DNA of 64,000 bases, from positions 62,001 to 126,000 of the forward strand of contig CAINFC010000006.1 in NCBI GenBank assembly GCA_903847975.1, given 5' to 3'. Origin of the DNA: an uncultured Acidobacteriota bacterium. Lineage in GTDB: Bacteria > Acidobacteriota > UBA6911 > CAINFC01. Below the pieces are notes generated by a model, which saw nothing but the letters and a program-made list of their open reading frames with translations, searched no databases and had not been told where the DNA came from. The translations under genes and the position numbers were made by a program. Position 1 is the stretch's first letter, and each line of letters opens with the position of its first letter. Positions 41,458-61,823 of this stretch are shown here, piece after piece.

Positions 41458-43746
41458 CTACCTGCCGGACATCAGCCTCCGGCAGATCAGTCCTGCGGCA
41501 ATGGCTGCCAGCCTTTTTCTTTGGGGCGGATATTGTCGAAAGGAAACGATTGGAGCGCTCCACTGCAGAAGGGGCAGCCAATAGGCCCAAAGATCACTCT
41601 GCCCGGGTGCATATCCGGCAGCATATTCCCGCAGCAGGCCGATCAGGGAAAGGATCTTTTCCATCATGGGATCATTGCTGCTTCCCAGGCCGCATGGCTT
41701 TTCGGTAAGGGTCCGAACCTCGATAAGCGCCCGGCATTGAAGGGCGATGGTGGACAAATCTTCCTCCGTCTCCAGGCGGGTCATCTGCAAAAGGGTCAGG
41801 GCTTCCATGCGGGCAAAATCGGATGCCACATTGCGGATGCCGGTTTCGGAAAAATCGATGATGTAGATGTTCTCCCTGTCGTCGATCAGGATATTGTTCA
41901 GATTCAGGTCCCCATGGGTGATGGAGCGGTGAAGCACCCGTCGATCCTGCATGCGGTCCTCAAACAGGATTCGTATGGCGCGAAACGGATTCGGGAGACG
42001 CATGCCCAGCTCCGGGCAATCCATTTCCTCGTCCTCCCGGCCAATACCCAGCAGGCTCTCCGCATCCTCTTCCATTCTTGGAAAAAGCCCTCGCGGATCG
42101 TGCTCCCGGAAAAGAAAGGTCGGCTCAAGCCGCGTCTGGCCATACCAGGGATACAGGATTTTCCCGAATAAGGAATCCAACACCGGCCGGAGATCCTCAA
42201 AGCTTCTCTGAATCAGCAGATCCCCAAGCCAGGTCAGCCGCGTGTCCGGACCGTTCAGGCCGACGAAATTATATCGAAGAGCTGCCCACTCCCCCATCTG
42301 CGCCTTGCCCATGATGACCGCGCTGTTGTTCAGTATGAAGGGGCGAACACACTCCTTATAGGCCTTTTCTTCCCGTTCGATCCAGTCCCGGGTGCTGATT
42401 TTCAGCACCGTCGGCAGCATCTTTCTTTGCTGGGCATCCCAGCCGCTGACCCGGAACGTCGTGGAGCTATATCCTCCGGGTAGCGGATCCGCCAGGATTT
42501 CCAGGGAATCGGAATAGACATTTCGAGCCAGGCACTCCCATTCGAAAGGGAATGGCTTCCCGTCGGCTCGATGGACCTTCAATCGTGCGTCTTCCGCGGA
42601 GCGTACTTCCGATGGCACAAAAAGCCAGGCGGCGGCCTCCTCCAATTTCCAGTCCGTCATCCAATCGGCAGCCAAGATTTCCGTCTCCAGGGACAGCATC
42701 TGCTTCAGCAAATCCTTCCAATGCTCGCCGGGATGCGGCTCCGGAGTGTTTTCCGAAAACAGGAAACAGGTACCGAAGAAACGATCGGTACATCCCTGGA
42801 TTTCGCGGGAGTGTCCCATGCTGCAGATTTCCGCCGTTTCGTCATCGGCAAGAGGCAGCCTTTCCCTTGCTGCGGCTATTCCGGCAAGAACCAGCCTCCT
42901 GGAGTCCCGGCGTCCCAGAATCAGAAATCCGAACGGGGCAGAACAAGGCAATGCAAAGCGGCGCCGGACTTCCCTGGCGGCGTGGTCCAACAGGGCGCAT
43001 AACGGGATTGCCGGCTGCAGGGCGGTGATCCGAACGGCTGGTTCCCCGCGGAAGGAGAGGGCCTGACGCACGTGGAAATAGGCCTCTCCCGGATGGGGGG
43101 CCAGGAGAAAATCGGCTTCGGCGGTCCCTCGCGGCTGGACTGCCACCCAGTAGCCGGAAGCCAGAAAAGGCCCTTCCGCTTCTTCGGCCTCTTCCGGATG
43201 CCGGCCCAGGCCGCCGATGCCCCAGGCCAGCCCAAGCTCCTGCAGCGAAACGGTCTGGAGAGCTACCGGGCCTTTGCCTGTCCCATCCGGTATAGTGCGG
43301 CTTAATCCCCATAAATCCAGGCAATCGCGCCCGGAATCGAGCTCCTGCCATCGGAAGTGTGGATCTGTCGCCTCCAAAACCGCAGGGGAATATGGAGTCG
43401 GTCCGGAAATAGAGGAGATTTTTTCCATGGCCCGGGAAACATCCGGCTCAAGATGAAAGAGGTTCAGCAGGCCGGTGGTGCGCAGGGTGTCGAGAACAAA
43501 GGGCTGCACTCCGGCCAGGGTGATAGGATAATCGCTTTTGGCGCGAGCCTTTCGCAAGCGGACCAGAGTGCGTACTCCCAGGCTGGAAAGAAAGCTGGTA
43601 CCCGATAAATCGAGCAGCAGAGGCAGGCGGTCGTATTTCCCTTCGGGGAAAGTTCTTTCCAGCTGCTGCGCTCCTTCACTGTCGATGCGACCTTTTAAGA
43701 CTGCGATGACGACCTGTTTTGTTTCGTGCAGATGTATTTCCAGCAT
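41458..43746 (-). CDS. STAS domain fused to an aminoglycoside-phosphotransferase-like kinase, at the end of the T6SS cluster
   Basis: This 762-residue protein starts at ATG 43746, 28 bases after the PAAR stop. Residues 1-112 form a STAS domain (anti-sigma-antagonist type: LLLDLSGTSFLSSLG, with a Ser at the phosphorylatable position). Residues about 113-430 are not recognised. Residues about 430-762 resemble the APH/choline-kinase-like fold: probable ATP-binding K449 in TVLKIS, catalytic HGDLNLNN (H611, D613, N618) and metal-binding D631 in IIDFSETG. T6SS clusters often carry Ser/Thr kinase, phosphatase, FHA and TagF regulators; none is seen in this window. This fusion may replace them as a switch of secretion (inference). 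It could also be a neighbour unrelated to secretion. Confidence 0.75.
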   Translation of the reverse strand: MLEIHLHETKQVVIAVLKGRIDSEGAQQLERTFPEGKYDRLPLLLDLSGTSFLSSLGVRTLVRLRKARAKSDYPITLAGVQPFVLDTLRTTGLLNLFHLEPDVSRAMEKISSISGPTPYSPAVLEATDPHFRWQELDSGRDCLDLWGLSRTIPDGTGKGPVALQTVSLQELGLAWGIGGLGRHPEEAEEAEGPFLASGYWVAVQPRGTAEADFLLAPHPGEAYFHVRQALSFRGEPAVRITALQPAIPLCALLDHAAREVRRRFALPCSAPFGFLILGRRDSRRLVLAGIAAARERLPLADDETAEICSMGHSREIQGCTDRFFGTCFLFSENTPEPHPGEHWKDLLKQMLSLETEILAADWMTDWKLEEAAAWLFVPSEVRSAEDARLKVHRADGKPFPFEWECLARNVYSDSLEILADPLPGGYSSTTFRVSGWDAQQRKMLPTVLKISTRDWIEREEKAYKECVRPFILNNSAVIMGKAQMGEWAALRYNFVGLNGPDTRLTWLGDLLIQRSFEDLRPVLDSLFGKILYPWYGQTRLEPTFLFREHDPRGLFPRMEEDAESLLGIGREDEEMDCPELGMRLPNPFRAIRILFEDRMQDRRVLHRSITHGDLNLNNILIDDRENIYIIDFSETGIRNVASDFARMEALTLLQMTRLETEEDLSTIALQCRALIEVRTLTEKPCGLGSSNDPMMEKILSLIGLLREYAAGYAPGQSDLWAYWLPLLQWSAPIVSFRQYPPQRKRLAAIAAGLICRRLMSGR

Positions 43747-43774: not shown

Positions 43775-44071
43775 CTAGCCGATAATGACCGTGGGACAGC
43801 CCACCGTTATGGTTCCGCCGTGTGCGGTGAGATCCCCGAGGCGGGCGGCGGGCATTCCGCCAATGAGGACGGTAAAAGACCCCAGAGCAATGACATCCGG
43901 CGGTCCTACGCAAAGGCACATATCTCCGACCCGGGCGGCGGGCATTCCGCCGATCAGAACCGTCGGGCAGCAGGGCGGGAGGATGGGACCTCCGACATGA
44001 GGGATGGGCGGTACTCCCGGGGTAGCCATGGGACAGGTGTGCATGTCCGTCAGCCGTGCGGCAGGAGGCAT
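43775..44071 (-). CDS. T6SS PAAR-repeat spike tip protein
   Basis: This 98-residue protein starts at ATG 44071 behind AAAGGAG. It is almost entirely PAAR: PAARLTDMHTCP at the start and two MPAARVGD/MPAARLGD repeats with conserved His and Cys that bind the structural metal. PAAR proteins sharpen the VgrG spike and can carry effectors; here there is no C-terminal toxin extension. It lies 20 bases after the vgrG stop and is part of the same operon. Confidence 0.92.
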   Translation of the reverse strand: MPPAARLTDMHTCPMATPGVPPIPHVGGPILPPCCPTVLIGGMPAARVGDMCLCVGPPDVIALGSFTVLIGGMPAARLGDLTAHGGTITVGCPTVIIG

Positions 44072-44091: not shown

Positions 44092-46374
44092 TCAGGCTTC
44101 CCAGGCTTCCTGATCCAGCCGGGTAAAGCAGATTTTACAGGATCCGGCGTCGATGCCGGTCACGCGCAAAACACCTTTTTCATCCGTGGTGCCGCTGGTC
44201 TCCGAACCGTCCGGGAGCTGCACCCGGCAAGGTTCCCCTGGAACCGGGCAGCCGGCCTCATCCACCAGGGCAATTTCGATCCAGTGGGTTTTCTTTTTGT
44301 TTTCTTCGGAGTTGGGATCGTGACTGGCAACTTTCGGCAACTGAGGCTGGGCACCCGGCTTGGCAGTGTCCGCTTCCTCCACTTTGTTAGGCGCCAGGAC
44401 GGGAACCAGGGTTCCCGCCATGCCGGACAAAGCGGCCCCTCCGCTGTTGATCATTACCATGGCACCTTGAATTTGAACACCACCCGGATTGACGGTGACG
44501 AAACTCCCGCCGCACTTCAGCGACAGGCCGACCGCGGCTTCCACGACCACGTTCATTCCCTTGAGATAGAGCGATCCGCTGACCTGCTCGCTGTGGTTGC
44601 CCTTGAATTCCTCGGCCACGTTCCCGTCGACGGCCAGAGACAGGGATCCGCTGACCTTGGCCGCCGCCTTGCCTTTCACGGTCAGGTGGTAGTCTCTTTC
44701 CACCTTGCCGACGGCGTCCCGGCGGATGGTGAACTCCGCGTCGCGCTCCACGAGCTCCTTCCGGTCGCGCTTGACAATCAGGCAGGAATCATTTTCGATG
44801 GTTTCGCGGCGATCGTTTTTAACCCGCAGGTCAAAATCCTTTTCCGCATGCTGGAAAAATTGCTCCTGGCCCTTTTGGTCTTCAAAGCGGATTTCATTAA
44901 AACCCTCCCCGCCTTTGGAGGAATAGGACTTCACGGCACTAACCGTTTTCATGTCGGGAAGGGCGTAGGGCGGCATCGACTCTCCGTTGTAAACCCGCCC
45001 GGTAATTATCGGCTGATCGGGATTGCCCTCCAGGAAATCGACAATCACCTCCTGTCCGATCCGGGGAATGGTCATCATTCCCCATCCTTTCCCCGCCCAG
45101 CCCTGGGAGACCCGGATCCAGCAGGAGCTCTTATCATCGAACTGCCCCTCCCGGTCCCAGTGAAACTGCACTTTGACTCGGCCGTACTTGTCCACATAGA
45201 TTTCCTCCCCGGGAGGGCCTACCACCAGAGCGGTCTGGCTTCCGGGAACAACCGGGATCGGAGTGTGCCGCACCGGGCGGAAAGAGGTGGCGAAGGGAAT
45301 ACAACGGAAACGGTTGGCATACTCGCATTCCGCCGAGGTGTCCTCTCCGGAACTCCGGTAGCTGGCACTCTGGTCGAATTCGTGTTCGATGGCCACCAGC
45401 ACATAGGGCTTATTAAAGTCCTTTCGATAATGTTCCTTCAGCTCGAAACGAAAGCCGGGCTGCATCCCCAGGCAGTTTCCCTCTCCTCGGATGTGCATTA
45501 GAAAAGTTTCCTCTTCCTGCATTCGTATTCCGGTCAGCTGGTCTCCCTGGTCACGAGCGGTAAATTCGCCCGGATAGTCGTAAATTTCATATCCGCGCTC
45601 GTCTTTGCCGGTCACCCCGCTGCTCAGCTGCACCAGAGGGGTTTCGAAATTGAAATCGCGCAGCGTATACTGGCCGGGTTTGACTTCCTGGCTTAGCATC
45701 CAGGTTCTGACGGTCTCCGATTTTTCGATACCCCCTTCCACGGGACGGAACAGGATCTCCGGCCAAACCGATGAAGGCTTGAATTCGGAGGAATGGTCCG
45801 CCAGAACCAGGGTGTGCTTCTTCTGCTCGTGCTCGAAAAAGTAATAAATCCCGTCTTCTTCCATCAGCCGGGAAATGAATTGAAAATCGGTTTCCCGGTA
45901 CTGAACGCAATATTCCCGGGGCTGGTAGTTGCCGTGCAGCCGCAGGGCATAATCGCTGAATTTCCGGTCGGCAAAAATGGCCTGCAGGATATCGGCGGTG
46001 GTTTTGTTCTGGAAAATCCGGCAGTTGCGCGTGCAGGTCAAAAACCAGGGCCAGGGAACCAGTGTGGCGGTATAGTTGGTCATCCATATGCCGGTCGGAC
46101 TGCTCTCGACATATTCGGTTCCTCCCTGCGTAAAGGAGCTCAGAAAACCGTTCAGGAACGCTTCCGATCCGTTGTCCAGCTGCCAGCGCAGGGAGACATT
46201 CTTGCCGACCAGGGAGGCAAAGGGGAGAGAGCGGTTTTCCGAAAACATTTCCAGGTCGAAGCGAAACAGCTGAGAAATTCCTTCGCAGCCGCGAAAACGG
46301 CGCAACAGCAGAACATCTTTCCCCAGAGGCGTAATAACCTGGGCCCGCCGCTGGTCCTGGGAGTAAGTACCCAT
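44092..46374 (-). CDS. vgrG: T6SS spike protein VgrG (TssI) with a C-terminal transthyretin-like domain
   Basis: This 760-residue protein starts at ATG 46374 behind GGAGG. Gp27-like and gp5-OB domains span about 1-480 (FRGCEGISQLFRF, YCVQYRETDFQFISRLMEEDGIYYFF split over the Vgr core, WIRVSQGWAGKGWG). A repetitive beta-helix needle follows (about 490-660). The last 90 residues form a separate domain (IEIALVDEAGCPVPG, DGSETSGTTDEKGVLRV) of the transthyretin/carboxypeptidase-regulatory type, known in other VgrGs as an adaptor for effectors. No toxin gene follows; PAAR and the STAS-kinase do. It forms the puncturing tip on the Hcp tube. Confidence 0.95.
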   Translation of the reverse strand: MGTYSQDQRRAQVITPLGKDVLLLRRFRGCEGISQLFRFDLEMFSENRSLPFASLVGKNVSLRWQLDNGSEAFLNGFLSSFTQGGTEYVESSPTGIWMTNYTATLVPWPWFLTCTRNCRIFQNKTTADILQAIFADRKFSDYALRLHGNYQPREYCVQYRETDFQFISRLMEEDGIYYFFEHEQKKHTLVLADHSSEFKPSSVWPEILFRPVEGGIEKSETVRTWMLSQEVKPGQYTLRDFNFETPLVQLSSGVTGKDERGYEIYDYPGEFTARDQGDQLTGIRMQEEETFLMHIRGEGNCLGMQPGFRFELKEHYRKDFNKPYVLVAIEHEFDQSASYRSSGEDTSAECEYANRFRCIPFATSFRPVRHTPIPVVPGSQTALVVGPPGEEIYVDKYGRVKVQFHWDREGQFDDKSSCWIRVSQGWAGKGWGMMTIPRIGQEVIVDFLEGNPDQPIITGRVYNGESMPPYALPDMKTVSAVKSYSSKGGEGFNEIRFEDQKGQEQFFQHAEKDFDLRVKNDRRETIENDSCLIVKRDRKELVERDAEFTIRRDAVGKVERDYHLTVKGKAAAKVSGSLSLAVDGNVAEEFKGNHSEQVSGSLYLKGMNVVVEAAVGLSLKCGGSFVTVNPGGVQIQGAMVMINSGGAALSGMAGTLVPVLAPNKVEEADTAKPGAQPQLPKVASHDPNSEENKKKTHWIEIALVDEAGCPVPGEPCRVQLPDGSETSGTTDEKGVLRVTGIDAGSCKICFTRLDQEAWEA

Positions 46375-46386
46375 ACGAACCTCCTT

Positions 46387-49071
46387 CTATGAGACCCGGT
46401 ATACGAATTCGCCCTGCCCCCCCACCTCGATATGCACGCCGGCAATGGAGGATCCTTCGGCCATGCGGGACAGGAAGAGCCCGGACATTTCCGGCAGCAG
46501 AGTTCCGGTCAGGATGTGATCGACGTTGCGTGCGCCGCTCTCCACCTCTTTGCATCGGTCGGCAATGGCCTGGATCACCGACTCATCGTACGTGAAGGTC
46601 GCGCCGTGATTTTCTTTGAGCCGAGAGGCAATTCGTCCCAGCTGCAGACGAATGATCCGCTGCATGACCGCATCGCCGATCGGATAGTAGGCGGTGACCA
46701 CCATCCGTCCCAGGAGCGCGGGTTTGAAGACCTTGATCAATTCCGGGCGGATCGCAGATACCAGGGCGGCCGGGTCCGGAGCGGTTTCCGGATCGGCACA
46801 GAGCTTCATGACCGTGTCGGTGGCTACATTGGAAGTCAAAAGGATCACCGTATTCTTGAAATCAATTTCCCTTCCTTCCCCGTCCTCCAGTATTCCCTTG
46901 TCAAAAACCTGGTAAAAGAGCTCCATGACGTCCGGATGCGCCTTTTCCACTTCATCCAGAAGGACCACGGAATAAGGCTTTCGACGCACCGCCTCCGTCA
47001 GCACGCCCCCTTCTCCATATCCCACATACCCCGGGGGAGATCCCTTCAGCGAGGAGACCGTATGGGCCTCCTGGTACTCGCTCATGTTGATCACCACCAT
47101 ATTGCGCTCACCCCCGTAAAGGGTTTCCGCCAGGGTGACCGCCGTCTCGGTCTTGCCCACGCCGCTTGGACCCACCAGCAGGAACACGCCAATCGGGCGC
47201 CGCGGATCCGTCAAGCCGGCCCGGGAAGTCTGGATGCGACGGGCAATCTCTTCCAGGGCGTGGCTTTGCCCGATGACCCGGTGCTCCAGCCGCTCCTTCA
47301 GAGATAGCACGGTCTTGATTTCGTCGGTCATCATCCGGCCGACGGGAATTCCGGTCCATCCGGAGATGACATCGGCAATCGCCTGGGAGGTGACGCAGGC
47401 CTGCATGAGCGGCGTTTCTCCCTGAACCCGGGCCAGCTCGTCGCTGCGCTGCGAGAGGCGCAATCGCCATTCCTCCACGCTGACCCCGGCGTTGGCGGCG
47501 GCCCTGGCCCCCTCCTCCTGGCCGGTGCCGGGAAGGCAGGCTTGCTCCAGCTGCGTGCGCAACTGCCGAATTTCGCCGATCAACTCCTTTTCTTTATCCC
47601 ATTGCCGCTGCAGCGTTTCCAGGCGAAGCTCCTCTTCCTCCTTCTCCGAGCGCAGCTGCGCCATCCGGGCCTGGTGGTCGGCCCCGACTGCGGCTTCCCG
47701 CTCCAGGACTTCGATTTCCACAGCCCGGTGATCGATGCGTCTCCGGCAATCCTCGATCGGCGGAGGAGTGGCCGACTGGCCGATGGCCACCCGGGCGCAG
47801 GCCGTATCCAGAACGCTGACCGCTTTGTCCGGCAGCTGCCGGGAGGACAGGTAGCGGTGCGACAGGCGCACGGCATCTTCCACGGCTTCGTCCAGAATCC
47901 GCACCTGGTGATGTTTTTCCATGGTTTCCGTCAGCCCGCGCATCATGATAATGGCCTGCGCTTCCGTGGGCTCCTCCACCTTGATGACCTGAAACCTTCG
48001 GGCCAGGGCGGCATCTTTTTCGAAATACTTTTTATATTCCGCCCAGGTGGTAGCGGCAATCGTGCGCAATTCTCCGCGGGCCAGGGCCGGCTTGAGCAGG
48101 TTGGCGGCGTCGCTCTGTCCGGCCTGTCCGCCGGCGCCAATCATGGTGTGGGCTTCATCAATAAAGAGAATCAGCGGACTGGGAGAGGATTTTACTTCTT
48201 CAATCACCGTCTTAAGACGGTTTTCAAATTCGCCTTTGATGCCGGCTCCAGCTTGCAGCAGCCCCAGATCGAGGGTGCGGACAATGACATTACGAAGCGG
48301 AGGAGGGACATCTCCCTGGGCCACGCGGAGGGCAAACCCCTCGACCACCGCGGTCTTGCCCACGCCGGCTTCGCCCGTCAAAATGGGGTTGTTCTGCCGG
48401 CGCCGCGTCAGGATATCGATGACCTGGCGAATTTCCAGGTCTCGGCCCAGTACGGGGTCGATTTTACCCGCCCGGGCACGGGCGGTGAGGTCGACGGTGT
48501 ATTGATCCAGTGCTTGGGTTTTTCCTGCCGCAGCCGCGGCCCCCGGCTCTCCCGGGCCCTGGGCGGCCGCTCCCGGAAGGGAGGAATCGGCACGGTCTTC
48601 CGCGGAACCGGCACAGACCGCGACCATTTCCTTTTTAAGCGCCTCTGCCGAAAGGCGGGAAAATTCCTTCGAAATTTCCTGCGCCAGGCGGGACAAATCG
48701 TCGTTGCTGATCAGGGCCAGAAGGAGGTGGCAGGAGCGCACCCGCGAGGAGCCGAAATCGATGGAGGCCAACAGCCAGGCATTTTCCACCAGTCGGGGAA
48801 TATGGGGGGAAAGGGCCGGAGTGCGTGAATTCCCAGTCTTCAGCCGATCCAGGGAGCGGGTCAGGTCCCGGACCAGGCGGGACCGGTCGATTTCGTAATG
48901 GCGGGCGATTCGGATCAGATCGGAATCAGCAGCCTCCGCCAGCTTCAGAAAGAGATGCTCCAAATCCACTTCATAGTTCGTGCGCGACAGGCACAAGCCG
49001 GCTGCCGCTTCCAGCGCGCTGCGGGATGTCTCATTGAGCCTTCCAATCAAGGATTTCAAATTTACCGCCAT
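46387..49071 (-). CDS. clpV: T6SS sheath-recycling AAA+ ATPase ClpV (TssH)
   Basis: This 894-residue protein is a Clp/Hsp100 ATPase with a Clp-N domain (1-160), two AAA+ modules with Walker A GEAGVGKTA (first) and GPSGVGKTE (second), Walker B LFIDEAHTMIGAGG in the first, and a short coiled-coil middle domain (about 430-530). The divergent N-terminal domain and position in the tss operon identify it as ClpV rather than ClpB. It disassembles contracted TssB/TssC sheaths in the cytoplasm. The stop lies 12 bases upstream of vgrG. Several Ala/Gly/Pro-rich residues at about 165-190 link the N domain to AAA1. Confidence 0.95.
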   Translation of the reverse strand: MAVNLKSLIGRLNETSRSALEAAAGLCLSRTNYEVDLEHLFLKLAEAADSDLIRIARHYEIDRSRLVRDLTRSLDRLKTGNSRTPALSPHIPRLVENAWLLASIDFGSSRVRSCHLLLALISNDDLSRLAQEISKEFSRLSAEALKKEMVAVCAGSAEDRADSSLPGAAAQGPGEPGAAAAAGKTQALDQYTVDLTARARAGKIDPVLGRDLEIRQVIDILTRRRQNNPILTGEAGVGKTAVVEGFALRVAQGDVPPPLRNVIVRTLDLGLLQAGAGIKGEFENRLKTVIEEVKSSPSPLILFIDEAHTMIGAGGQAGQSDAANLLKPALARGELRTIAATTWAEYKKYFEKDAALARRFQVIKVEEPTEAQAIIMMRGLTETMEKHHQVRILDEAVEDAVRLSHRYLSSRQLPDKAVSVLDTACARVAIGQSATPPPIEDCRRRIDHRAVEIEVLEREAAVGADHQARMAQLRSEKEEEELRLETLQRQWDKEKELIGEIRQLRTQLEQACLPGTGQEEGARAAANAGVSVEEWRLRLSQRSDELARVQGETPLMQACVTSQAIADVISGWTGIPVGRMMTDEIKTVLSLKERLEHRVIGQSHALEEIARRIQTSRAGLTDPRRPIGVFLLVGPSGVGKTETAVTLAETLYGGERNMVVINMSEYQEAHTVSSLKGSPPGYVGYGEGGVLTEAVRRKPYSVVLLDEVEKAHPDVMELFYQVFDKGILEDGEGREIDFKNTVILLTSNVATDTVMKLCADPETAPDPAALVSAIRPELIKVFKPALLGRMVVTAYYPIGDAVMQRIIRLQLGRIASRLKENHGATFTYDESVIQAIADRCKEVESGARNVDHILTGTLLPEMSGLFLSRMAEGSSIAGVHIEVGGQGEFVYRVS

Positions 49072-49134
49072 AACGGTACCTCTTTCTTTCGGAAAATGGT
49101 CATCGGTTATTCCAAACAGTTTCTGCCTAGACGA

Positions 49135-50163
49135 TCAACAGGCCGCCGCAAGAATCAGCTGCGGGTCATCCTCTGCCGTGGTTTCCGTTTTCAGCCAGGT
49201 AGTCCAGCCCAGGAAGGCCGGATTCCGGGCGCTGCTTCCCAGCTGGCAGGAAGGAACCTCCTCCTTTTTCAGGAGAAGCTGGAAATCGAAGTCGAACTCC
49301 ATTCCCGCCAGGAAACGCACCAGATCCACAGCCGGCTGGTGGGCGCTGCCGTTCGGCAGGAAAGAGGAAAGCTGGGCCAGAGTCAACGGCCCAAAGCGCA
49401 GACGGAACTTGGCCTGCTGGTCCCAAAGACGGGAGCCCAGGATGGCATCGGTTCCCAATCCGCAATTGGCCAGGCCCAGAGAAGTCTGGCTCTCGCGGTC
49501 GATCGACAGCCATTGTCCCACAAATTGCTCCACCGCAACCGGAACTCCAAAATGGCTGCGGAGAATGTTCTCCAGGCAGGAAGCGGATCGGGGATGCTGC
49601 GTAATCCAGCCGCTGTAGTAGAGCAGGGTGCTGTCGGCTACCGACTGCCGGAGTCGCAGAGAGGGAGACCCCAGGCCGATCAGCTGAAACAGGTACCCGG
49701 TGAAAGGGTCCTGCCGGTCGCGCTCATAGCCAATGGCAAAGCGGTACTTTTCCCAGGCACGGTAGAACAGGGAGACCAGCCGGTGGTGAAAGCCATCCAG
49801 AAACTCCCAGAGGGCCCGGTCTTTCTGCCGGACCCGCTCCATGATCAGCTCCGTATAGGGAGCGGGGAGTACACCCTGCTGGCCGGTCAATCCCATGAAG
49901 GCGACCACCATCTCCGGAACGGAAAGCCCCTCTTCCTCTATCGATCGGCGAATATCCATCACCTCGCTGGGGGGGAAGTTCAAGGAAAGCCATGACCGGA
50001 AACGAACGGCTTCCTCTCCCGGCGAGTGAAAATAACCGACGGGCCGGCGCTCCGGATGAAACCGTTCCATCAGGCGAACCGCCTGGAAGAAGCCGAACGA
50101 ATAAGGCTCTTCAAAAAAAACTTTGGCTAGAGGAGGTTCTGCTCTCCCGCTCGTGGGGGCCAT
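49135..50163 (-). CDS. tssG: T6SS baseplate protein TssG (ImpH/VasB)
   Basis: This 342-residue protein begins at ATG 50163, 37 bases inside tssF, implying coupled translation. TssG features include the opening FFEEPYSFGFFQAVRLMER, the PVGYFHSPGEEAVRFRS segment, MVVAFMGLTGQQGVLP and the late RFGPLTLAQLSSFLP. It forms the baseplate wedge with TssE, TssF and TssK. Length is typical of the family. Confidence 0.94.
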   Translation of the reverse strand: MAPTSGRAEPPLAKVFFEEPYSFGFFQAVRLMERFHPERRPVGYFHSPGEEAVRFRSWLSLNFPPSEVMDIRRSIEEEGLSVPEMVVAFMGLTGQQGVLPAPYTELIMERVRQKDRALWEFLDGFHHRLVSLFYRAWEKYRFAIGYERDRQDPFTGYLFQLIGLGSPSLRLRQSVADSTLLYYSGWITQHPRSASCLENILRSHFGVPVAVEQFVGQWLSIDRESQTSLGLANCGLGTDAILGSRLWDQQAKFRLRFGPLTLAQLSSFLPNGSAHQPAVDLVRFLAGMEFDFDFQLLLKKEEVPSCQLGSSARNPAFLGWTTWLKTETTAEDDPQLILAAAC

Positions 50164-52001
50164 CGGCGCAGTACTCCTTCTCTTTGTTTGATTGTGGCGA
50201 CCAGCTGGTTGAAAGAATTGATGGAGGTGTAGAGGCCCAGGAAACGGTCCAGTACGGAGGCGAACAGAAACAGGCTGCTGCCGGCATACTGCTCCTCGTC
50301 GAACTCGATGGTGGTTTCCACCCCCCGCAGCAGCCCGCTGCCGATCGGCGAGCCGGTCTGCCGCACCACGCGGCGGCTGTCCACGCGGGTGATACCCTGA
50401 ATCTGCTTGCGCACCGCGCTGGATTCCGTGAAATCGTACAGCAACAGAATTTCCTGCAAGGCTTCCGGTGAGCCCTTGTGCCGGCCGTCCACCAGGGAGA
50501 GGTAATTGAGCGACAGGTGGGAAATGAGCCGCCAGTGCGCGCTCTGCCGAAGCGGCGGGCGGACGGTACCGGTCGGCTTTTTCAGGCAGCGGATCCGGGA
50601 CAGGCTTCGTATTCCCTCCACCTCAAAATCGCCATCCCTTCCGCCAAAAGGAAGTTTTCCGGGAAGGTCCCGGTTGGTGCAGGTAATTTGAACGGTGACC
50701 CCTTCGGCGGCCGGAACCTGCGGTCTGAAATTTAGATCCACAAACGACAGATACACTTCCGTGCCCGGGTCTTCCTTGCGGGCCGAAGGGCGGCGGGAAG
50801 AGTACCAGTAGGGTCGGTCGCGGTCGCGCTGCGATCCGTGCTCCGCGGAGTAAAAGGGTTGAAAGGAACGCGTTTCCTTGAGAAACGGATCCGTGGCCTG
50901 CACCCCGTCCACGCTGTATATTTCCGTGGCCATCTGCCGGTGGACGTCCGGAACCAGATGGTATTCGCTCTGCTGCTGCGTCAGGGCGATCGGCTCGGCG
51001 ACTTTTTGAAAAAGGTTTACAATCGGAGTGCATCCCAGTTGAAAGGTGCCGGCATCCACATTCGGTCGTTGGGATATACCTCCGGCCAGATGAATCAGAA
51101 TTTCGAATTGGTCCCCGAAGCCGGCCCGGTGGGCCTCTTCGAGTCCGCCAATCTCCAGGAAATAAAATTTTTCTGGAAAGGCAAAATACTCGGAGAGCAG
51201 CGCATACCCGCGGAAAGACCGCGGAGAGTAAGGTAGAAGCGCTTCCTCCGGGGAAAACCCCACGGGCCGAAGGCAGGTGGCCGGAAGAGAGAGGGGCGGT
51301 GGCAGCGGAGCGGAGGCCGGCAGGCGCGAAGAGCGTAAGGGGCGCAGCTCCACCCGGAGGGCGTGATTGAAGATCAGGGCGTACAGAGGACAGACAATCT
51401 GCGGCTCTCCGTTGAGAAAAAACCGGAGGCTTTCTATGGGCCGGGCCTCTTTCCCTTCACCGCAGTTCAACTTGGACAGCGCGGTTTCATTCTGGCATTG
51501 CAGCCGGAGGCGCAGTACCATTTCCGGAGGGCGGAGTCCCCGTTCCTGCCGCTCCGGCGTTTCCAGCGAGGCAGAGAGGACTTCGATCGGCCAAAGGATC
51601 ATCGGGAAGCAGGTTCGAAAGCGGCAGGGTGTTCCCTGGATCGGCTTGGAGTACAGGATGGTACCGCGCTTTATATCATAGCCGGAGGCGATCTTTCCCT
51701 GCGTCGGATCCAGCGCGAACTGGACGATGGAAAGGGAGGGAATCGGCGCCAGATAGTGCGGGTAAAGAACGTTCAGCAGGGACTCGGTAATCTGCGGGAA
51801 CTCGTCGTCCAGCTTCAGATGAATGCGGGCCGCCAGAAAAGCGAACGACTCGATCAGCCGTTCGACGTGAGGATCCTCGCACTGGTCCGGCTCCAGCATG
51901 AGTCTTCCTGCCACTTTGGGGTACTTAGCGGCAAACTCCTCTCCCAGGCGGCGAAGATAAGTCAACTCCCGTTCGTAGTATTCCAGCAGCTGATCGCGCA
52001 T
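50127..52001 (-). CDS. tssF: T6SS baseplate protein TssF (ImpG/VasA)
   Basis: This 624-residue protein starts at ATG 52001, sharing one base with the tssE stop (TAATG). Typical TssF marks are the opening YYERELTYLRRLGEEFA, KVAGRLMLEPDQCEDPHVERL, and FPQITESLLNVLYPHYLAP, followed by later segments such as FYSAEHGSQ and the final SFNQLVATIKQREGVLRRWP. It is the core baseplate wedge component around the VgrG hub. Confidence 0.95.
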   Translation of the reverse strand: MRDQLLEYYERELTYLRRLGEEFAAKYPKVAGRLMLEPDQCEDPHVERLIESFAFLAARIHLKLDDEFPQITESLLNVLYPHYLAPIPSLSIVQFALDPTQGKIASGYDIKRGTILYSKPIQGTPCRFRTCFPMILWPIEVLSASLETPERQERGLRPPEMVLRLRLQCQNETALSKLNCGEGKEARPIESLRFFLNGEPQIVCPLYALIFNHALRVELRPLRSSRLPASAPLPPPLSLPATCLRPVGFSPEEALLPYSPRSFRGYALLSEYFAFPEKFYFLEIGGLEEAHRAGFGDQFEILIHLAGGISQRPNVDAGTFQLGCTPIVNLFQKVAEPIALTQQQSEYHLVPDVHRQMATEIYSVDGVQATDPFLKETRSFQPFYSAEHGSQRDRDRPYWYSSRRPSARKEDPGTEVYLSFVDLNFRPQVPAAEGVTVQITCTNRDLPGKLPFGGRDGDFEVEGIRSLSRIRCLKKPTGTVRPPLRQSAHWRLISHLSLNYLSLVDGRHKGSPEALQEILLLYDFTESSAVRKQIQGITRVDSRRVVRQTGSPIGSGLLRGVETTIEFDEEQYAGSSLFLFASVLDRFLGLYTSINSFNQLVATIKQREGVLRRWPPRAGEQNLL

Positions 52002-52486
52002 TACTTTTCCTTCAGCGTATACTCCCCCCGGCCGATTTGCATGGTGGTGTCAAAGGTGACCGGCTCGGGTGCCGGATCCACTTTCAGTCGGGCATCGATC
52101 CGGAATTTCAACAGCCGGCTCGCATCCTCGGAGGGCTCCAACGAAACGGATACGTTCTCCAGGCGAGGTTCAAAGGTTACGATTACGCTTTCGATCGCCC
52201 GGCGCAGCCGGCTTTTATCGGCTGGGCTTCTCACCCCGATATGGGTGAAGTCCGGCAAGCCGTAAGCGGCGACCGAGGTCTGCAGCTCCTTGCAACCCGG
52301 CGGAATCTCGTCGGCGAAACGCCGGGTGTTGAGGAGCCATTCGAGATCGCGGCATACGGCCTGTTTCATCTGTCGTAGCCCGCTGGCCCGCGAAGCCGGC
52401 GCCTCCTGGCGAAGTTCCGGCTCGCGGTCGATCAGCCGGTCGAGGACCGACAGCGTGATTCGTACCTGATCCTCCAGGTAGGGCAT
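52001..52486 (-). CDS. tssE: T6SS baseplate protein TssE (gp25-like)
   Basis: This 161-residue protein belongs to the GPW/gp25 family. Visible are VRITLSVLDRLIDREP at the N-terminus, a RDLEWLLNTRR segment, and the gp25 core around VRSPADKSRLRRAIESVI and FEPRL, matching the family's R-x-x-IExxIxxFEPRL motif. It initiates sheath polymerisation from the baseplate. It lies six bases after the hcp stop and shares a stop/start junction with tssF. Confidence 0.93.
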   Translation of the reverse strand: MPYLEDQVRITLSVLDRLIDREPELRQEAPASRASGLRQMKQAVCRDLEWLLNTRRFADEIPPGCKELQTSVAAYGLPDFTHIGVRSPADKSRLRRAIESVIVTFEPRLENVSVSLEPSEDASRLLKFRIDARLKVDPAPEPVTFDTTMQIGRGEYTLKEK

Positions 52487-52492
52487 TGCCGG

Positions 52493-52984
52493 CTATACCT
52501 TTTTATTGGCCTTCAGATCCCAGCCGGCCGCCACATCCCCTTTCGCTTTTCCGGTAGACGGATCGGTGGAAGTGTATTTCAGCTCCACTTTCCCGTAGGT
52601 CATTTCCACCTGCTCTTTGGGAAGCTCATTGCCTGTGGTATGCCCCACCGGCTCGTAGCTGGTGATCATCACATCGGAGAACTTGTATTCCATGTACTTC
52701 ACCTTGTCGCCTCCGGCGCGGCAGAGTTCGAACAGCGCGGTTTTAAAAACTTCCCCGGTGGCGCAGGCAATGGCCAGCTTGGGGGAAGCTTTGTCGATCA
52801 GCTTGGTGATCGAAAAATCCTTGAAGTCGGCCCGTTCCGAAGAACGCGAACCGGCGGTGCTGGCCACGGACTTCGGCTGGTGAACTCCCCAGCTGAAAGA
52901 AAGCACTTCAATCCAGTCCTTGTGCTTGTCGTCGGTGCTCTCACCGGGAATTCCTTCGATTTTCAGATACGCATCGAAAGCCAT
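52493..52984 (-). CDS. hcp: T6SS tube protein Hcp (TssD)
   Basis: This 163-residue Hcp1-family protein starts at ATG 52984 with AAGGAG upstream. It shows the Hcp opening AFDAYLKIEGIPGES, WIEVLSFSWGVHQP, a central ISKLIDKASP-like stretch (ITKLIDKASP) and the late YTSTDPSTGKAKGD tail. Hcp hexamers stack into the inner tube propelled by sheath contraction. It follows tssC by 160 bases, the longest gap in the cluster, where a hairpin may permit separate control, as expected for an abundantly needed component. Confidence 0.95.
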   Translation of the reverse strand: MAFDAYLKIEGIPGESTDDKHKDWIEVLSFSWGVHQPKSVASTAGSRSSERADFKDFSITKLIDKASPKLAIACATGEVFKTALFELCRAGGDKVKYMEYKFSDVMITSYEPVGHTTGNELPKEQVEMTYGKVELKYTSTDPSTGKAKGDVAAGWDLKANKKV

Positions 52985-53091
52985 ACGTTTTCTCCTTGAT
53001 TGTGAAAAAAGAGCAGCTCTCCTGTGTAAGGCGAGGAGATTCCGCTCGGTATTAATAATCCTTCCACTCGCTCTTGAATCTCCTGGGACGC

Positions 53092-53119
53092 CGCCCCCTC
53101 CGGTCCCTCCCGAGGGGCG
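53092..53119 (-). other. GC-rich hairpin between tssC and hcp
   Basis: CGCCCCCTC (53092-53100) can pair with GAGGGGCG (53112-53119) around an 11-base loop, with one bulge. No T-run follows, so it is not a standard terminator. It could be a processing or stability element ahead of hcp. Confidence 0.35.
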
Positions 53120-53143
53120 CGGAGACCGCTGGCCGGCCGCTAC

Positions 53144-54634
53144 CTACTTTTGGGCGGAGGGCGGCAACTCCGCAACCAGACGCAGCGATACGCTCAGTTC
53201 GTCCAGCTGGAAATGCGGCTTGAGAAAGGCAATCGCCTTGTAGACCCCCGGCTTGCCGGCGACGTCCATCACCTCGATGCGCCCTTCGCGCAAGGGGTAC
53301 TGCGCCTTGATTTCCTGTCCGGCGTCGTCATCCAGCAGGATGTATTTGCTGATCCATTGATTCAGGTAATCTTCACAGTTTTTACGGGACATGAAGGAAC
53401 CGATCTTATCGCGCATCATGGCCTTGAGGTAATGCGCAAACCGGCAGATGGCGAAGGTGTACTGCAGCTGCGAGGACAACCGGGCATTGGCGTTGGCGAA
53501 ATCACTGTCGTATTTCTTGGCTTTGTTTACCGACTGCGTACCGAAAAATGCGGCGTAGTCCGTATTTTTGCAGTGCACCAGGGGAATGAAGCCCAGGTCG
53601 GAGAGCTCTTTCTCCCTACGTTCGGTGATGGCAATTTCCGTCGGACATTTGAGGGCTACATCGCCTTCATCGGTTTTGAAGGTGTGCGTGGGGAGTCCCT
53701 CCACCAGACCTCCGCCTTCCACTCCGCGTATGGCGGCGCACCATTGGTACTTGGAAAAGGCGCTGGTCAGGCAGGAGCCCAGGGAATAGGCGGCATTGCC
53801 CCAAAGGTATTTGTGGTGGTCCCGCCCGTCCACATCCTCCTCAAACTGAAAGGTTTCTGTCGGGGAGGTTTCCTTGCCGTAAGGAAGGCGCATCAGGGTG
53901 CTGGGCACACAGAGCCCCACATAACGGCTGTCGTCGGATTCCCGGAAGGAGCGCCATTTGGCAAACTCCAGCCGCTCGAAGATCTTGGCCAGATCCCGGA
54001 CTTCGGTCATTTCCGTGAAGCTGTTCCACCCGAACATCTGCGGCGAGGCAGCGGAAAGGAAGGGAGCGTTGGCCGCGGCGGCCACGTTGGAAATCTTTTC
54101 CAGCAGGCTGATGTCTTCCGGGTGGTTGGTAAACTGAAAGTCGCCGATCATGCAGGCGAACGGAGAGCCGCCGAAGGTGCCGTACTCCTCTTCGTAAATC
54201 TTCTTGAAGAGCGCCGACTGGTCAAATTCCGGAGCCCGCTCCATATCCTTGAGCAGCTCCTTTTTCGTGGCGTTCATCACCCGGATCTTCATCATGCTGC
54301 CGGTTTCGCTGGAAAAAACCATCTGGTGCAATCCGCGCCAGGAGGCTTCCAGCTTCTGGAACTCCTCATGATGCATGATTTCATTCAGCTGCGCGCTGAG
54401 GTAGCGGTCGATCTGGGCAATGCGGGCCTTGATGGTCGCCTCCACATTTCTGCCGATGACCGCCTCTCCCTGCATGACCGCCTGCACAAACTCCGAGACC
54501 ATGTCTTTGGCACGATCGGTTTGGCTGGCATCCTTAGCCAGCCGGCCTTCCTCCAGGATCCGGGAGAGAATGCCCGATTCCTGCTTTTCCTCCTGCTGGA
54601 CCAATTGCTGTTTTTCGTTGAGCGGCTGGTTCAT
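53144..54634 (-). CDS. tssC: T6SS sheath large subunit TssC (VipB/EvpB)
   Basis: This 496-residue protein starts at ATG 54634 behind AAGGAG. TssC marks include the IDRYLSAQLNEIMHHEEFQ region, LEASWRGLHQMV, GSPFACMIGDFQF, the central LCVPSTLMRLPYG, and RFAHYLKAMMRDKIGSFM with the conserved NCEDYLNQWI following. With TssB it forms the contractile sheath and its C-terminal region is the ClpV-accessible part. It lies five bases after tssB. Confidence 0.96.
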   Translation of the reverse strand: MNQPLNEKQQLVQQEEKQESGILSRILEEGRLAKDASQTDRAKDMVSEFVQAVMQGEAVIGRNVEATIKARIAQIDRYLSAQLNEIMHHEEFQKLEASWRGLHQMVFSSETGSMMKIRVMNATKKELLKDMERAPEFDQSALFKKIYEEEYGTFGGSPFACMIGDFQFTNHPEDISLLEKISNVAAAANAPFLSAASPQMFGWNSFTEMTEVRDLAKIFERLEFAKWRSFRESDDSRYVGLCVPSTLMRLPYGKETSPTETFQFEEDVDGRDHHKYLWGNAAYSLGSCLTSAFSKYQWCAAIRGVEGGGLVEGLPTHTFKTDEGDVALKCPTEIAITERREKELSDLGFIPLVHCKNTDYAAFFGTQSVNKAKKYDSDFANANARLSSQLQYTFAICRFAHYLKAMMRDKIGSFMSRKNCEDYLNQWISKYILLDDDAGQEIKAQYPLREGRIEVMDVAGKPGVYKAIAFLKPHFQLDELSVSLRLVAELPPSAQK

Positions 54635-54639
54635 GGTTC

Positions 54640-55173
54640 TTACTCCTTATTTTCTTCCGGTTTTTTTTCGCTTTCCAGGCCCAGCGACCGGCTGAGCTCC
54701 TGCTGCGTGCCGGTGTTCTGGAGAATGTCCTGCAGCAACTCTTCCAATTTGTCGTTGCCGTCCATTTTGGAAGCCAAATCGGAAAGCTTCTGCCGGGCCT
54801 CCACCAGCTTGCGCAACGGTTCTACCTGCTGCACCAGCTGGTCGGGCTCGAAATCCTCCATCCTGTTGAACTTCAGTTCCACACCCATTTTGCTGTCGTC
54901 CCCGGTCAGCTTGTTGTCCACCCGCAGGGTCAGCCGGGGCTTCATGCCGGACAGGACCTGATCGAAATTGTCGCGATCGATCTCGATAAACTTCCGCTCC
55001 TTCAGCCGCGGCAGCGGGGTTTCCGGCTTACCCGAGAAGTCACCCATGACACCGACCACAAAGGGCAATTCCTTGACTTCGATGGCCCCGCCCACTTCCA
55101 CATCGTAGGTGATGTGCACCCGGGGAGGTCGAACACGGCCCAGCTTCTGTTGAATACTTTCTTTTTTTGGCAT
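54640..55173 (-). CDS. tssB: T6SS sheath small subunit TssB (VipA)
   Basis: This 177-residue protein starts at ATG 55173 behind AAAGGAGAG. It has the TssB opening QQKLGRVRPPRVHITYDVE, LPFVVGVMGDFSG, KERKFIEIDRDNFDQVL, and the later RKLVEARQKLSDLASKMDG with a Glu-rich C-terminal helix, the ClpV-responsive part of the sheath. Length is typical. Confidence 0.96.
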   Translation of the reverse strand: MPKKESIQQKLGRVRPPRVHITYDVEVGGAIEVKELPFVVGVMGDFSGKPETPLPRLKERKFIEIDRDNFDQVLSGMKPRLTLRVDNKLTGDDSKMGVELKFNRMEDFEPDQLVQQVEPLRKLVEARQKLSDLASKMDGNDKLEELLQDILQNTGTQQELSRSLGLESEKKPEENKE

Positions 55174-55197
55174 AAGCGCCTCTCCTTTGTATGGTAA

Positions 55198-56313
55198 TTA
55201 CGAATTGGAATCTACATCTTTAATTCCCAGGGTTTCCCGCAGACTGGAAAGCACCGCGGAATCCTTGATGACGTCTTCGAGCCATTGCGCAAGGGGCATT
55301 TGCCCCCAGTGTACCGCCCTCTGAACCAGATAGGAAACCGGACTGTGCGGCTCGGTAGCCCGGAAGAATTCGGCTATTTCCGCAAGGCGGCGCAGCGCCT
55401 CCCCCCGGGAGGCGATTTCCCCCGAAAAGTGGACTTGCGGCCTTGGCCCGACCGGTGGTTCCGAACCGGTGGTCGGCACCGGACCCTGGTTCACGATGGG
55501 AGCGGATCCGGCCGGCTGCTTCTCCTTTTTGATCCGCTCCACCAGACTGCCTATTTCTTCCAGGGCCTTTTTCAGCTCGCCCAGGCCCGGTGTCTGGCGT
55601 CCGAACCTCTGATCCATCCATCCGTCCAGTTTGTGGAATTCCTCTTCGCACTGCCGGATCGCCTCGTACAGTCCCTCATAAAAGTGAAGCGGGGATCGAT
55701 TTTTGGCCGCGCGCCACTGTTCTCCGTGAATCTTTTTTTCCTGGACGGCCTGCTCCCTCAGCTGGTTCACTTTATAGAGCTCTTCGGCGCCGAGCGCTTC
55801 CGGTTTTTCAGGAATATCGAACTGCTTGCTTTCCTCCCATTGAAGAAAGTTGTAGTTGTCGCCGCTGGGAAGGGCGGTCAGCTTGATCTCCTTGATCGCC
55901 AAGGACGTCTGCCGGCTGACCCAGGTCATCAGATTCGCACGGGCCTCCAGATCGTCTTCGTCCGGCAAGGGATAAAAGCAGTCCCAGAAGACTTCGTGAA
56001 AACCGCAGAGCAGTTGCAGCGCTTCCTTTAATCCCTGAAACTGGCGCAGCTTCACCAGGGCTTCCGACAGCCAGGCGGCGATCTGCAAATCCTTGGTTTT
56101 CCCGCTTAGGGCCTCCACGGCCAGGCGGTACACCTGGTTCCAATCGGCCGCTTTGATTTCCCGAACTCCTTCCGGCTCGATGGACACCTCGCTCCTCCGC
56201 GCTTCGCGGATCAGGTCATAGGGGCCGGAATGCTTGAGATCCGCACCCGCGGGGTTTTCGCCGGGGAAGGGAAGAAGAATGGTTTCGATATCCAGACTGC
56301 CATTTGCATTCAT
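55198..56313 (-). CDS. tssA: T6SS baseplate/sheath-cap protein TssA (ImpA N-terminal family)
   Basis: This 371-residue protein is read from ATG 56313, which has GGAGGA upstream and overlaps the amidase stop (ATGA). The ImpA domain lies at the N-terminus: PFPGENPAGADLKHSG, VYRLAVEALSGKTKDLQIAAW (a split motif of helices) and VFWDCFYPLPDEDD are strong marks. The C-terminal part (about 250-371) contains a linker with PVG repeats and a helical domain ending in PVSYLVQRAVHWGQMPLAQWL. TssA organises baseplate docking and sheath growth. Confidence 0.93.
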   Translation of the reverse strand: MNANGSLDIETILLPFPGENPAGADLKHSGPYDLIREARRSEVSIEPEGVREIKAADWNQVYRLAVEALSGKTKDLQIAAWLSEALVKLRQFQGLKEALQLLCGFHEVFWDCFYPLPDEDDLEARANLMTWVSRQTSLAIKEIKLTALPSGDNYNFLQWEESKQFDIPEKPEALGAEELYKVNQLREQAVQEKKIHGEQWRAAKNRSPLHFYEGLYEAIRQCEEEFHKLDGWMDQRFGRQTPGLGELKKALEEIGSLVERIKKEKQPAGSAPIVNQGPVPTTGSEPPVGPRPQVHFSGEIASRGEALRRLAEIAEFFRATEPHSPVSYLVQRAVHWGQMPLAQWLEDVIKDSAVLSSLRETLGIKDVDSNS

Positions 56314-56909
56314 GTCGGTAAGTCCTCCGGAACGGGAAACCCCTGCAGCCAGCGCATTCCCAGAACGCGCTCCCGAGCATAAGGCCTTATGCTGACCGCG
56401 TCCTGCTGATTGCCGCCGAGCAGCAGCAGTTGATCCTCCAGCAGCTTTACAAAAAAACCCACATGGCCCAGGGGAGAGTCCGCGCGGCCGCGCCACAGCA
56501 CGACCACGCAGCCGTAAACCGGAAAGTTCAAAGACACTCCCCCCCAGCCCAGCCAGGAGCGCGCGTCGGCTCGGGAAGTGCCGGGGAAGCCGGCCATGCG
56601 CATGCACCAGTTAACGAACGCCGAACACCAGGGAGTCTCATCCGCGGAGCGACCCAGGCCCGTGGCCCGCAGATAAGCCTCCACATTGACGGTCCGGCCC
56701 CGTGCGGATATCTCGCGGATTCCGTACTCGCGCAGGGCAAACTCCATCCATGGGAACGGCGAGAAATCCGTGGGGAGAAAAAGCTCATTTTTTCCTTTTT
56801 CCCCCGCATCCGGACCGGCCCAAAGGCCGGCATAAGCCCCAGCGCCCAGGCGCAGAAAATCGCTGCGAGCCAAAGTCGTTCGGGAATGGGGAGGGGTCGG
56901 TCCGGGCAT
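56310..56909 (-). CDS. Cys-His peptidoglycan amidase-like protein (TIGR02594/CHAP-like) embedded in the T6SS operon
   Basis: This 199-residue protein has the NlpC/P60-CHAP-like pattern: C95 in TPWCSAFVNWC, H149 in SPLGHVGFF and N167 in LLGGNQQD, the classical catalytic order. It aligns by eye with the TIGR02594 family of cell-wall amidases. An N-terminal stretch (about 15-32: SDFLRLGAGAYAGL) resembles an export signal without the twin Arg. Two roles are possible: a T6SS effector injected into prey, or a self-directed enzyme opening peptidoglycan for the trans-envelope complex, analogous to TagX in Acinetobacter. The embedded position, export-like N-terminus and no visible adjacent immunity gene favour the second (inference). 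It overlaps tssA by 4 bases. Confidence 0.75.
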   Translation of the reverse strand: MPGPTPPHSRTTLARSDFLRLGAGAYAGLWAGPDAGEKGKNELFLPTDFSPFPWMEFALREYGIREISARGRTVNVEAYLRATGLGRSADETPWCSAFVNWCMRMAGFPGTSRADARSWLGWGGVSLNFPVYGCVVVLWRGRADSPLGHVGFFVKLLEDQLLLLGGNQQDAVSIRPYARERVLGMRWLQGFPVPEDLPT

Positions 56910-56933
56910 ATCGAGTTTCCGCCGCAGGAAAGC

Positions 56934-57749
56934 TTATCTCTTCTCCTGTGCCTCGCTGGGACCTTCCTCAAACTGCAGGGACCGGCATTCCAGGAGAGAA
57001 ACTTCTTCCTGGTCCATTTGAAACACCCGCAATCCCAGGGGGAAGCAGATGGCGTCGGAAGGCCCCTGCCAGTCGGTCATTCGGCCGAGCTGCACCGGAG
57101 GATTGTCGCTTCGCCCGCTGCCCGGATAAAGGGAGAAAAGAAATACTTCTCCGACCGCTCCATCCCGGGATTGGATGCGGGCAGGGATCCACAGAAGATC
57201 GCGCAGGTGCCGCGGCGGTGTTACCTCCAGGCAGAGGATCTGCTCCCATGGAACCCAGGTGTACTTGTCGTGAACCACGACTTCCAGAACAGACCCCATC
57301 CCGTCGTGAACGTCGCGAAAATCGGAAAAAGGATTTCCATCCCGAAGGCCTCGCAGGGCCGGGCGATCTTCCTCGGCCTTTGCCAAAAGCCGCCCCGCGT
57401 CTTCCATTTCTCCGGAACGGACTTTATCGATCCCGGCCAGAAGCTGATCCACGTAATCCGGTGGCTCGCGGAGAAAATGAGGAGCGGTGCCATGCGAAAA
57501 AAGCAGCTGTCGGGATTTTTCGGCGGCCAGGATGTTCCGGTACACCTGAATACCGAAATGACGGCTGGCATCCGTCTGCATCAGAACCTGAAGCTGCTTT
57601 TCCGCACGATCCCACTCCGCGCACAGACTGAGCAGCTCAAAGAGGGTGATTCGGCAGGCCGGTTGCATGGGATTGGCCTTTACTTCACGGGTGGCCTGTT
57701 CGACGGCGGCCTTCAAGTCGCCGGCTTGGATCAGCTGTTGTATATCCAT
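56934..57749 (-). CDS. tagJ: T6SS accessory protein TagJ/ImpE
   Basis: This 271-residue protein matches the ImpE family. A TPR-like N-terminal helical region (DLKAAVEQATREVKANP, RITLFELLSLCAEWDRAEKQL split) leads to a C-terminal domain with VHDKYTWVPWEQI, LLWIPARI and GEVFLFSLYPGS, each typical of ImpE. In Pseudomonas TagJ binds the TssB sheath helix and modulates ClpV recruitment; a similar role is inferred. It follows tssM by 20 bases. Confidence 0.88.
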   Translation of the reverse strand: MDIQQLIQAGDLKAAVEQATREVKANPMQPACRITLFELLSLCAEWDRAEKQLQVLMQTDASRHFGIQVYRNILAAEKSRQLLFSHGTAPHFLREPPDYVDQLLAGIDKVRSGEMEDAGRLLAKAEEDRPALRGLRDGNPFSDFRDVHDGMGSVLEVVVHDKYTWVPWEQILCLEVTPPRHLRDLLWIPARIQSRDGAVGEVFLFSLYPGSGRSDNPPVQLGRMTDWQGPSDAICFPLGLRVFQMDQEEVSLLECRSLQFEEGPSEAQEKR

Positions 57750-57769
57750 AGCATTCTGTTCCTATCGCG

Positions 57770-60970: not shown

Positions 60971-61007
60971 GGGCTTGCCCGTAATTGGTTGGATCGAACC
61001 GCGGGGT

Positions 61008-61763: not shown

Positions 61764-61823
61764 AACGTCTTTCTTTTTTTGGCGTCCGTTGTTCCTCTGA
61801 ATGGGACCGTTTTGATTTCACGT

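Follow-up and report, generated by a model that had tools for sequence, protein, structure and literature searches.

The window, a stretch of 64,000 nucleotides from an uncultured Acidobacteriota bacterium, encodes on its minus strand (41458..43746) a protein of 762 residues with an ATG start, in which a STAS domain, a middle domain of predicted acetolactate decarboxylase (ALDC)-like fold and a TCAD9 kinase domain are joined, as seen from the open reading frame, Pfam matches and relatives. The same protein is present in many bacteria without a type VI secretion system (T6SS), and in several of them it lies beside partner-switch genes; a general switch-controlled kinase is therefore the most likely reading. 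We lean towards a mechanism, with moderate confidence, in which Ser55 is phosphorylated and dephosphorylated by a pair of RsbW/SpoIIE type, the state of the STAS domain thereby gating the TCAD9 kinase. The preliminary description had proposed a single protein joining a STAS domain to an APH-like domain, which the open reading frame and the STAS and TCAD9/APH matches confirm, but had read it as a possible T6SS regulator; the distribution of its relatives does not support a dedicated role of this kind. The combination STAS - ALDC-like - TCAD9 is new, although the kinds of component are known.

The kinase domain (residues ~412-757; 41476..42513, minus strand) matches the TCAD9 family (PF19974) with an E-value of 8.7e-38 and 131 bits (cut-off 40), outscoring the APH hit (1.2e-8), and its extent follows from the matching of both halves of the profile (positions 8-172 and 274-414 of 429). 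The catalytic residues named previously are all present: the predicted ATP-binding lysine K449 (42400..42402), the H611-G612-D613 catalytic loop (41908..41916), N618, and D631, the metal-binding Asp of an IIDF motif (41854..41856), which together with E459 are invariant in all 19 aligned full-length members. In the AF2 model, this C-terminal part was matched by Foldseek to APH, APH(4), APH(3'), MTR kinase and choline kinase, in agreement with the kinase fold that had been expected, and the conserved residues suggest that the domain is an active APH-like phosphotransferase. TCAD9 domains with the same catalytic residues also occur on proteins without STAS, namely REC-TCAD9 proteins and isochorismatase-like-TCAD9-DSP phosphatase fusions. 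The earlier suggestion that the kinase phosphorylates its own STAS serine finds no support here, and is made less likely by the occurrence of the same kinase without STAS elsewhere. The isochorismatase-like, TCAD9 and dual-specificity phosphatase domains are found in one protein at L022:9233-11563 and L023:5346-7661. The REC-TCAD9 kinases (L059:9401-11014, L060:2491-4632 and L061:9266-10882) lie near very large multidomain proteins, in or beside which CHAT or TIR domains are seen, and have the look of a signalling or conflict system of their own.

The STAS domain (residues 5-106; 43429..43734, minus strand; PF01740, 3.3e-11) is modeled by AF2 with a fold that superposes on SpoIIAA/RsbV (Foldseek TMt 0.85-0.92), and the NCBIfam model ant_ant_sig gives the window protein 47 bits, below its cut-off of 53.45. 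In our own alignment Ser55 (codon 43582..43584, minus strand) falls at the position of Ser58, the serine that is phosphorylated in SpoIIAA, with the motif F-L-S-S-L-G here against F-M-D-S-S-G in SpoIIAA. Both S54 and S55 are invariant across the 19 aligned full-length members, so that the serine at a phosphorylatable position claimed previously is upheld at the level of sequence.

The middle domain (residues ~112-408; 42523..43413, minus strand) is predicted to adopt an ALDC/PTD012-like fold. The stretch from residue 113 to 430 has no Pfam match, and neither the middle domain nor a possible role in defence was illuminated by Pfam, NCBIfam or PADLOC; the ~300 residues had been left unassigned, which holds for Pfam, but they form a conserved domain whose fold can be predicted with AF2 and Foldseek. 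As the STAS and kinase domains dominate the full-length model, its best 50 Foldseek hits included no match to the middle domain, and a separate model was made from the orthologous domain of Formimonas (pLDDT 87.6, pTM 0.87). Foldseek matched this model to acetolactate decarboxylases, PTD012 and PPC-type (AF0104-like) proteins with E-values of 1.8e-8 to 1e-3, the ALDC fold being reached with a probability of 1.00, TMq ~0.45-0.48 and TMt ~0.56-0.64. The likeness is one of predicted structure, because the sequence profile of the domain reached no PDB chain.

Related stretches occur without the kinase. Two paralogues in the same genome (C6:334754 and C6:50139) consist of STAS and such a stretch and adjoin genes for a BPD_transp_2 permease and an ABC ATPase; among 297 genomes sampled from the phylum, 11 have this ABC-linked family. 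Its profile directly matches the middle stretch of the window protein, the homology lying in the C-terminal part of the ABC-linked proteins, and profile-profile comparison with the orthologous middle domains gave a probability of 99% (E 6e-18, 258 columns). Such STAS and ALDC-like proteins, at L020:8751-9995 and L017:8109-9329 in this genome and in alignment A7, have genes for the permease and the ABC ATPase next to them, and may constitute a family of ABC-linked regulators or enzymes that Pfam does not cover. An HxH motif is invariant in 12 of 12 of these cousins and present in five of the 14 full-length members, and is absent from the window protein. In ALDC and PTD012 such a motif has a role in metal binding, and here it would correspond to the zinc site of the fold. 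The middle domain of the window protein is probably a structural or ligand-binding relative of the ALDC/PTD012 fold, as modeled, with the metal site lost.

A search of 60 relatives with the full protein gave, outside its own genome, matches to the kinase region only. When TCAD9 was sought in 396 genomes of the phylum, 14 had a match, including one full-length relative, L058, which is 32% identical across the 759 positions aligned (E 4e-136). Scanning genome contigs with the single protein yielded no relatives, and with a two-member alignment of the window protein and L058 it yielded 13, which cover residues 1-759 and come from Bacillota, Armatimonadota, Cloacimonadota, Deltaproteobacteria (Myxococcota in the tree), Bacteroidales, Kiritimatiellae and Dependentiae. 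The 14 full-length relatives are about 29-34% identical, and others were found in Syntrophomonadia and around Cloacimonadota; 19 members were aligned in all. Within the phylum, the full architecture is present in two of the 396 sampled genomes, that of the window and G061. The distribution is patchy, since a class search around Sporotomaculum found a relative in that organism only, among 113 genomes. In the kinase tree the position of the window protein within the full-length group is not resolved; its nearest neighbour is from Kiritimatiellae (L083; support 90/91, long branch), and its kinase domain has a mean identity to other members of 41%, against 55% over all pairs. The STAS-TCAD9 protein is a widespread module of patchy distribution that has probably moved horizontally.

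The genes surrounding these relatives suggest how the protein may be controlled. In four of the six Bacillota relatives a SpoIIE phosphatase, an RsbW-type kinase and/or a STAS protein directly adjoins the gene, in three orientations: divergent in Sporotomaculum (a 5TMR-SpoIIE-HATPase_c_2 fusion and a STAS protein) and in Formimonas (a HATPase_c_2 protein), convergent in G561 and codirectional in G562 (SpoIIE, HATPase_c_2 and STAS in both). The STAS-kinase gene of G562 (L144:5607-7950) is interrupted, either by a stop codon or by a frameshift, with the neighbouring SpoIIE-HATPase-STAS cassette intact. The two Syntrophomonas loci have no partner-switch genes on the flanking DNA examined. Stretches matching HATPase_c_2 number only two to seven per genome in the four Bacillota concerned, so this adjacency is not expected by chance, and its retention despite changed orientation argues for function. 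The four cases are not independent because of shared descent, and as the five Bacillota proteins in the kinase tree form one clade, the linkage may have had a single origin. Outside the Bacillota, no neighbour was recognised as a partner-switch gene when compared with the proteins of Sporotomaculum and Formimonas. The window genome likewise has no such gene adjoining, the nearest HATPase_c_2 and SpoIIE genes seen lying on the same contig at a distance of ~71 kb; its 12 HATPase_c_2 and 22 SpoIIE matches indicate that partners are available elsewhere. The partner-switch-like control raised in the preliminary description is thus in keeping with the neighbours of the relatives, but none adjoins the gene here and control of the T6SS in particular is unsupported.

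In the mechanism that we favour, the protein would be a cytoplasmic signalling kinase of three modules. The STAS domain would act as an RsbV/SpoIIAA-like receiver: an RsbW-type HATPase kinase would add a phosphate to Ser55 and a SpoIIE-type phosphatase would take it off. Having lost HxH, the middle domain would probably serve as a coupling or ligand-binding module, through which the state of S55 may set the output of the TCAD9 kinase. In this genome, the module would have come to lie after vgrG-PAAR. A more specific version, in which a partner switch controls the APH-like TCAD9 kinase and not a sigma factor, through the STAS and ALDC-like module, and is here wired into the T6SS operon, is conceivable but doubtful.

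The switch-controlled kinase has to be weighed against a kinase of small molecules, metabolic or housekeeping in role and sensing through its STAS domain, for example in membrane transport or ion homeostasis, to which the Bacillota partner-switch genes would be a lineage-specific addition. The nearest folds (APH, methylthioribose kinase and choline kinase) would suit such an enzyme, as would the ABC permease and ATPase genes that adjoin the STAS and middle-domain cousins. So, too, would the Cloacimonadota relatives, which come after a TrkA-type K+ channel gene and not after partner-switch genes. We nevertheless consider this unlikely, as REC- and STAS-fused TCAD9 proteins resemble signal outputs, the SpoIIE and RsbW genes adjoin relatives in three orientations, and S54 and S55 are invariant. 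Cloacimonadota relatives have such K+ channel genes next to or near them at L146:11121-12149, L147:6539-7558, L081:3750-4781 and L075:112-816, the last judged only from the start of its sequence.

The surroundings of the gene in the window are those reported previously. It is the last on the minus strand, 28 bases beyond the end of the gene for a PAAR protein in the same direction (43775..44071, minus strand; PF05488, 4.3e-24), a neighbour given as context that does not imply a functional link; a convergent plus-strand FGE-sulfatase gene ends five bases off. The T6SS cluster (44092..63197, minus strand; Pfam and NCBIfam scans) runs VgrG-TssH-TssG-TssF-TssE-Hcp-TssC-TssB-TssA-ImpE-TssM-TssL-TssK. 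Between tssA and impE lies a gene for a CHAP-domain protein (56310-56909, minus strand), possibly a peptidoglycan-cleaving cargo or accessory. Given the gap of 28 bases and the common strand, co-expression with the T6SS is likely, and the gene may be co-transcribed with it. Its GC3 is 0.66, and both GC3 and codon use fall within or near the low end of the range of its neighbours, and so provide no proof of foreign origin.

This position is what invites the proposal that the protein is a dedicated T6SS regulator, the kinase phosphorylating its own STAS domain or a T6SS component and thereby controlling secretion. Among the cluster genes scanned there is no FHA, PP2C, TagF or Hanks-type kinase, which agrees with the previously stated absence of PpkA, PppA, Fha and TagF, and the protein of the window has diverged further than most other full-length members, as would fit re-specialisation. 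Against this, a search for TssC/VipB (PF05943), positive in the E. coli control, found it in 0 of the 14 genomes that encode full-length relatives, several of which are drafts; G061, the other sampled genome of the phylum with this architecture, gave no TssC hit. The full-length homologues are thus found away from T6SS genes. Of 297 genomes sampled from the phylum, 42, or about one in seven, have a TssF of this type, yet ten related T6SS loci that were fetched, several on contigs cut short or poorly called, contained no relative of the STAS-kinase gene, so that the architecture does not recur beside vgrG-PAAR among them; the slot after VgrG is occupied by DUF4123, PAAR, Hcp or unrelated genes. 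With TssC absent from the genomes of relatives and the gene absent from related loci, the link to the T6SS is seen once, in this genome. A regulator of this kind is improbable; the protein is probably not a T6SS component, and its place in the operon an isolated acquisition. Still less credible, and rejected because relatives, including those of Bacillota, occur in genomes without TssC, is a kinase effector secreted with VgrG-PAAR: the slot directly after vgrG-PAAR is a usual one for effectors, and comparable slots in related clusters are variable, some with DUF4123 adaptors, but around this gene there is no PAAR/VgrG fusion, DUF4123 adaptor or downstream immunity gene, and a STAS domain fits cytoplasmic regulation.

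The components may be compared with systems already described. TCAD9, the 'ternary complex associated domain 9', is listed in a figure legend as associated with vWA-MoxR-VMAP conflict systems (PMC10910872); the parent paper on ternary systems lists APH-type kinases among the effectors without using the name TCAD (PMC7159879). The window protein shares with this family a full-domain match well over the cut-off and the same catalytic residues, but its partner domain is STAS, and no vWA-MoxR-VMAP genes are present among the window genes scanned with Pfam. With the RsbV/RsbW/RsbU and SpoIIAA/SpoIIAB/SpoIIE systems it has in common the STAS fold and conserved serine, and its Bacillota relatives have SpoIIE, an RsbW-type kinase and STAS as neighbours; it differs in carrying, besides STAS, a middle domain and a second kinase in the same chain, with no sigma factor target evident. 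A review of partner switching and STAS proteins lists, as a STAS fusion outside SLC26/SulP, a STAS-glycosyltransferase, all4160 of Anabaena, and a term search of it found no phosphotransferase (PMC8256260). In all4160 an N-terminal STAS domain is likewise the regulatory module of an enzyme, whereas the enzyme here is an APH-like kinase and an ALDC-like domain is added. A full-text literature search also found no fusion of STAS with an aminoglycoside phosphotransferase. The window genome itself encodes a second STAS-kinase fusion, STAS-TIGR02172 (APH), of 386 residues (C211, L021:9102-10262, G000), which shares with the window protein an N-terminal STAS and an APH-type kinase, here joined directly and without the middle domain, and which matches TCAD9 only marginally (20.8 bits against the cut-off of 40). 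The middle domain shares the predicted fold of acetolactate decarboxylase, PTD012 and PPC proteins, but neither a sequence-profile match nor the HxH motif.

These comparisons keep a tempting but unsupported annotation as a T6SS regulator from spreading. They also assign a likely fold to a domain that Pfam lacks and that recurs in STAS proteins linked to ABC transporters. No function is described for TCAD9 in the literature examined, and its fusion to STAS, with SpoIIE, RsbW and STAS neighbours in several genera, offers a testable handle on its activation. If the mechanism proposed here is true, partner switching would be extended from transcription factors to the output of a kinase.
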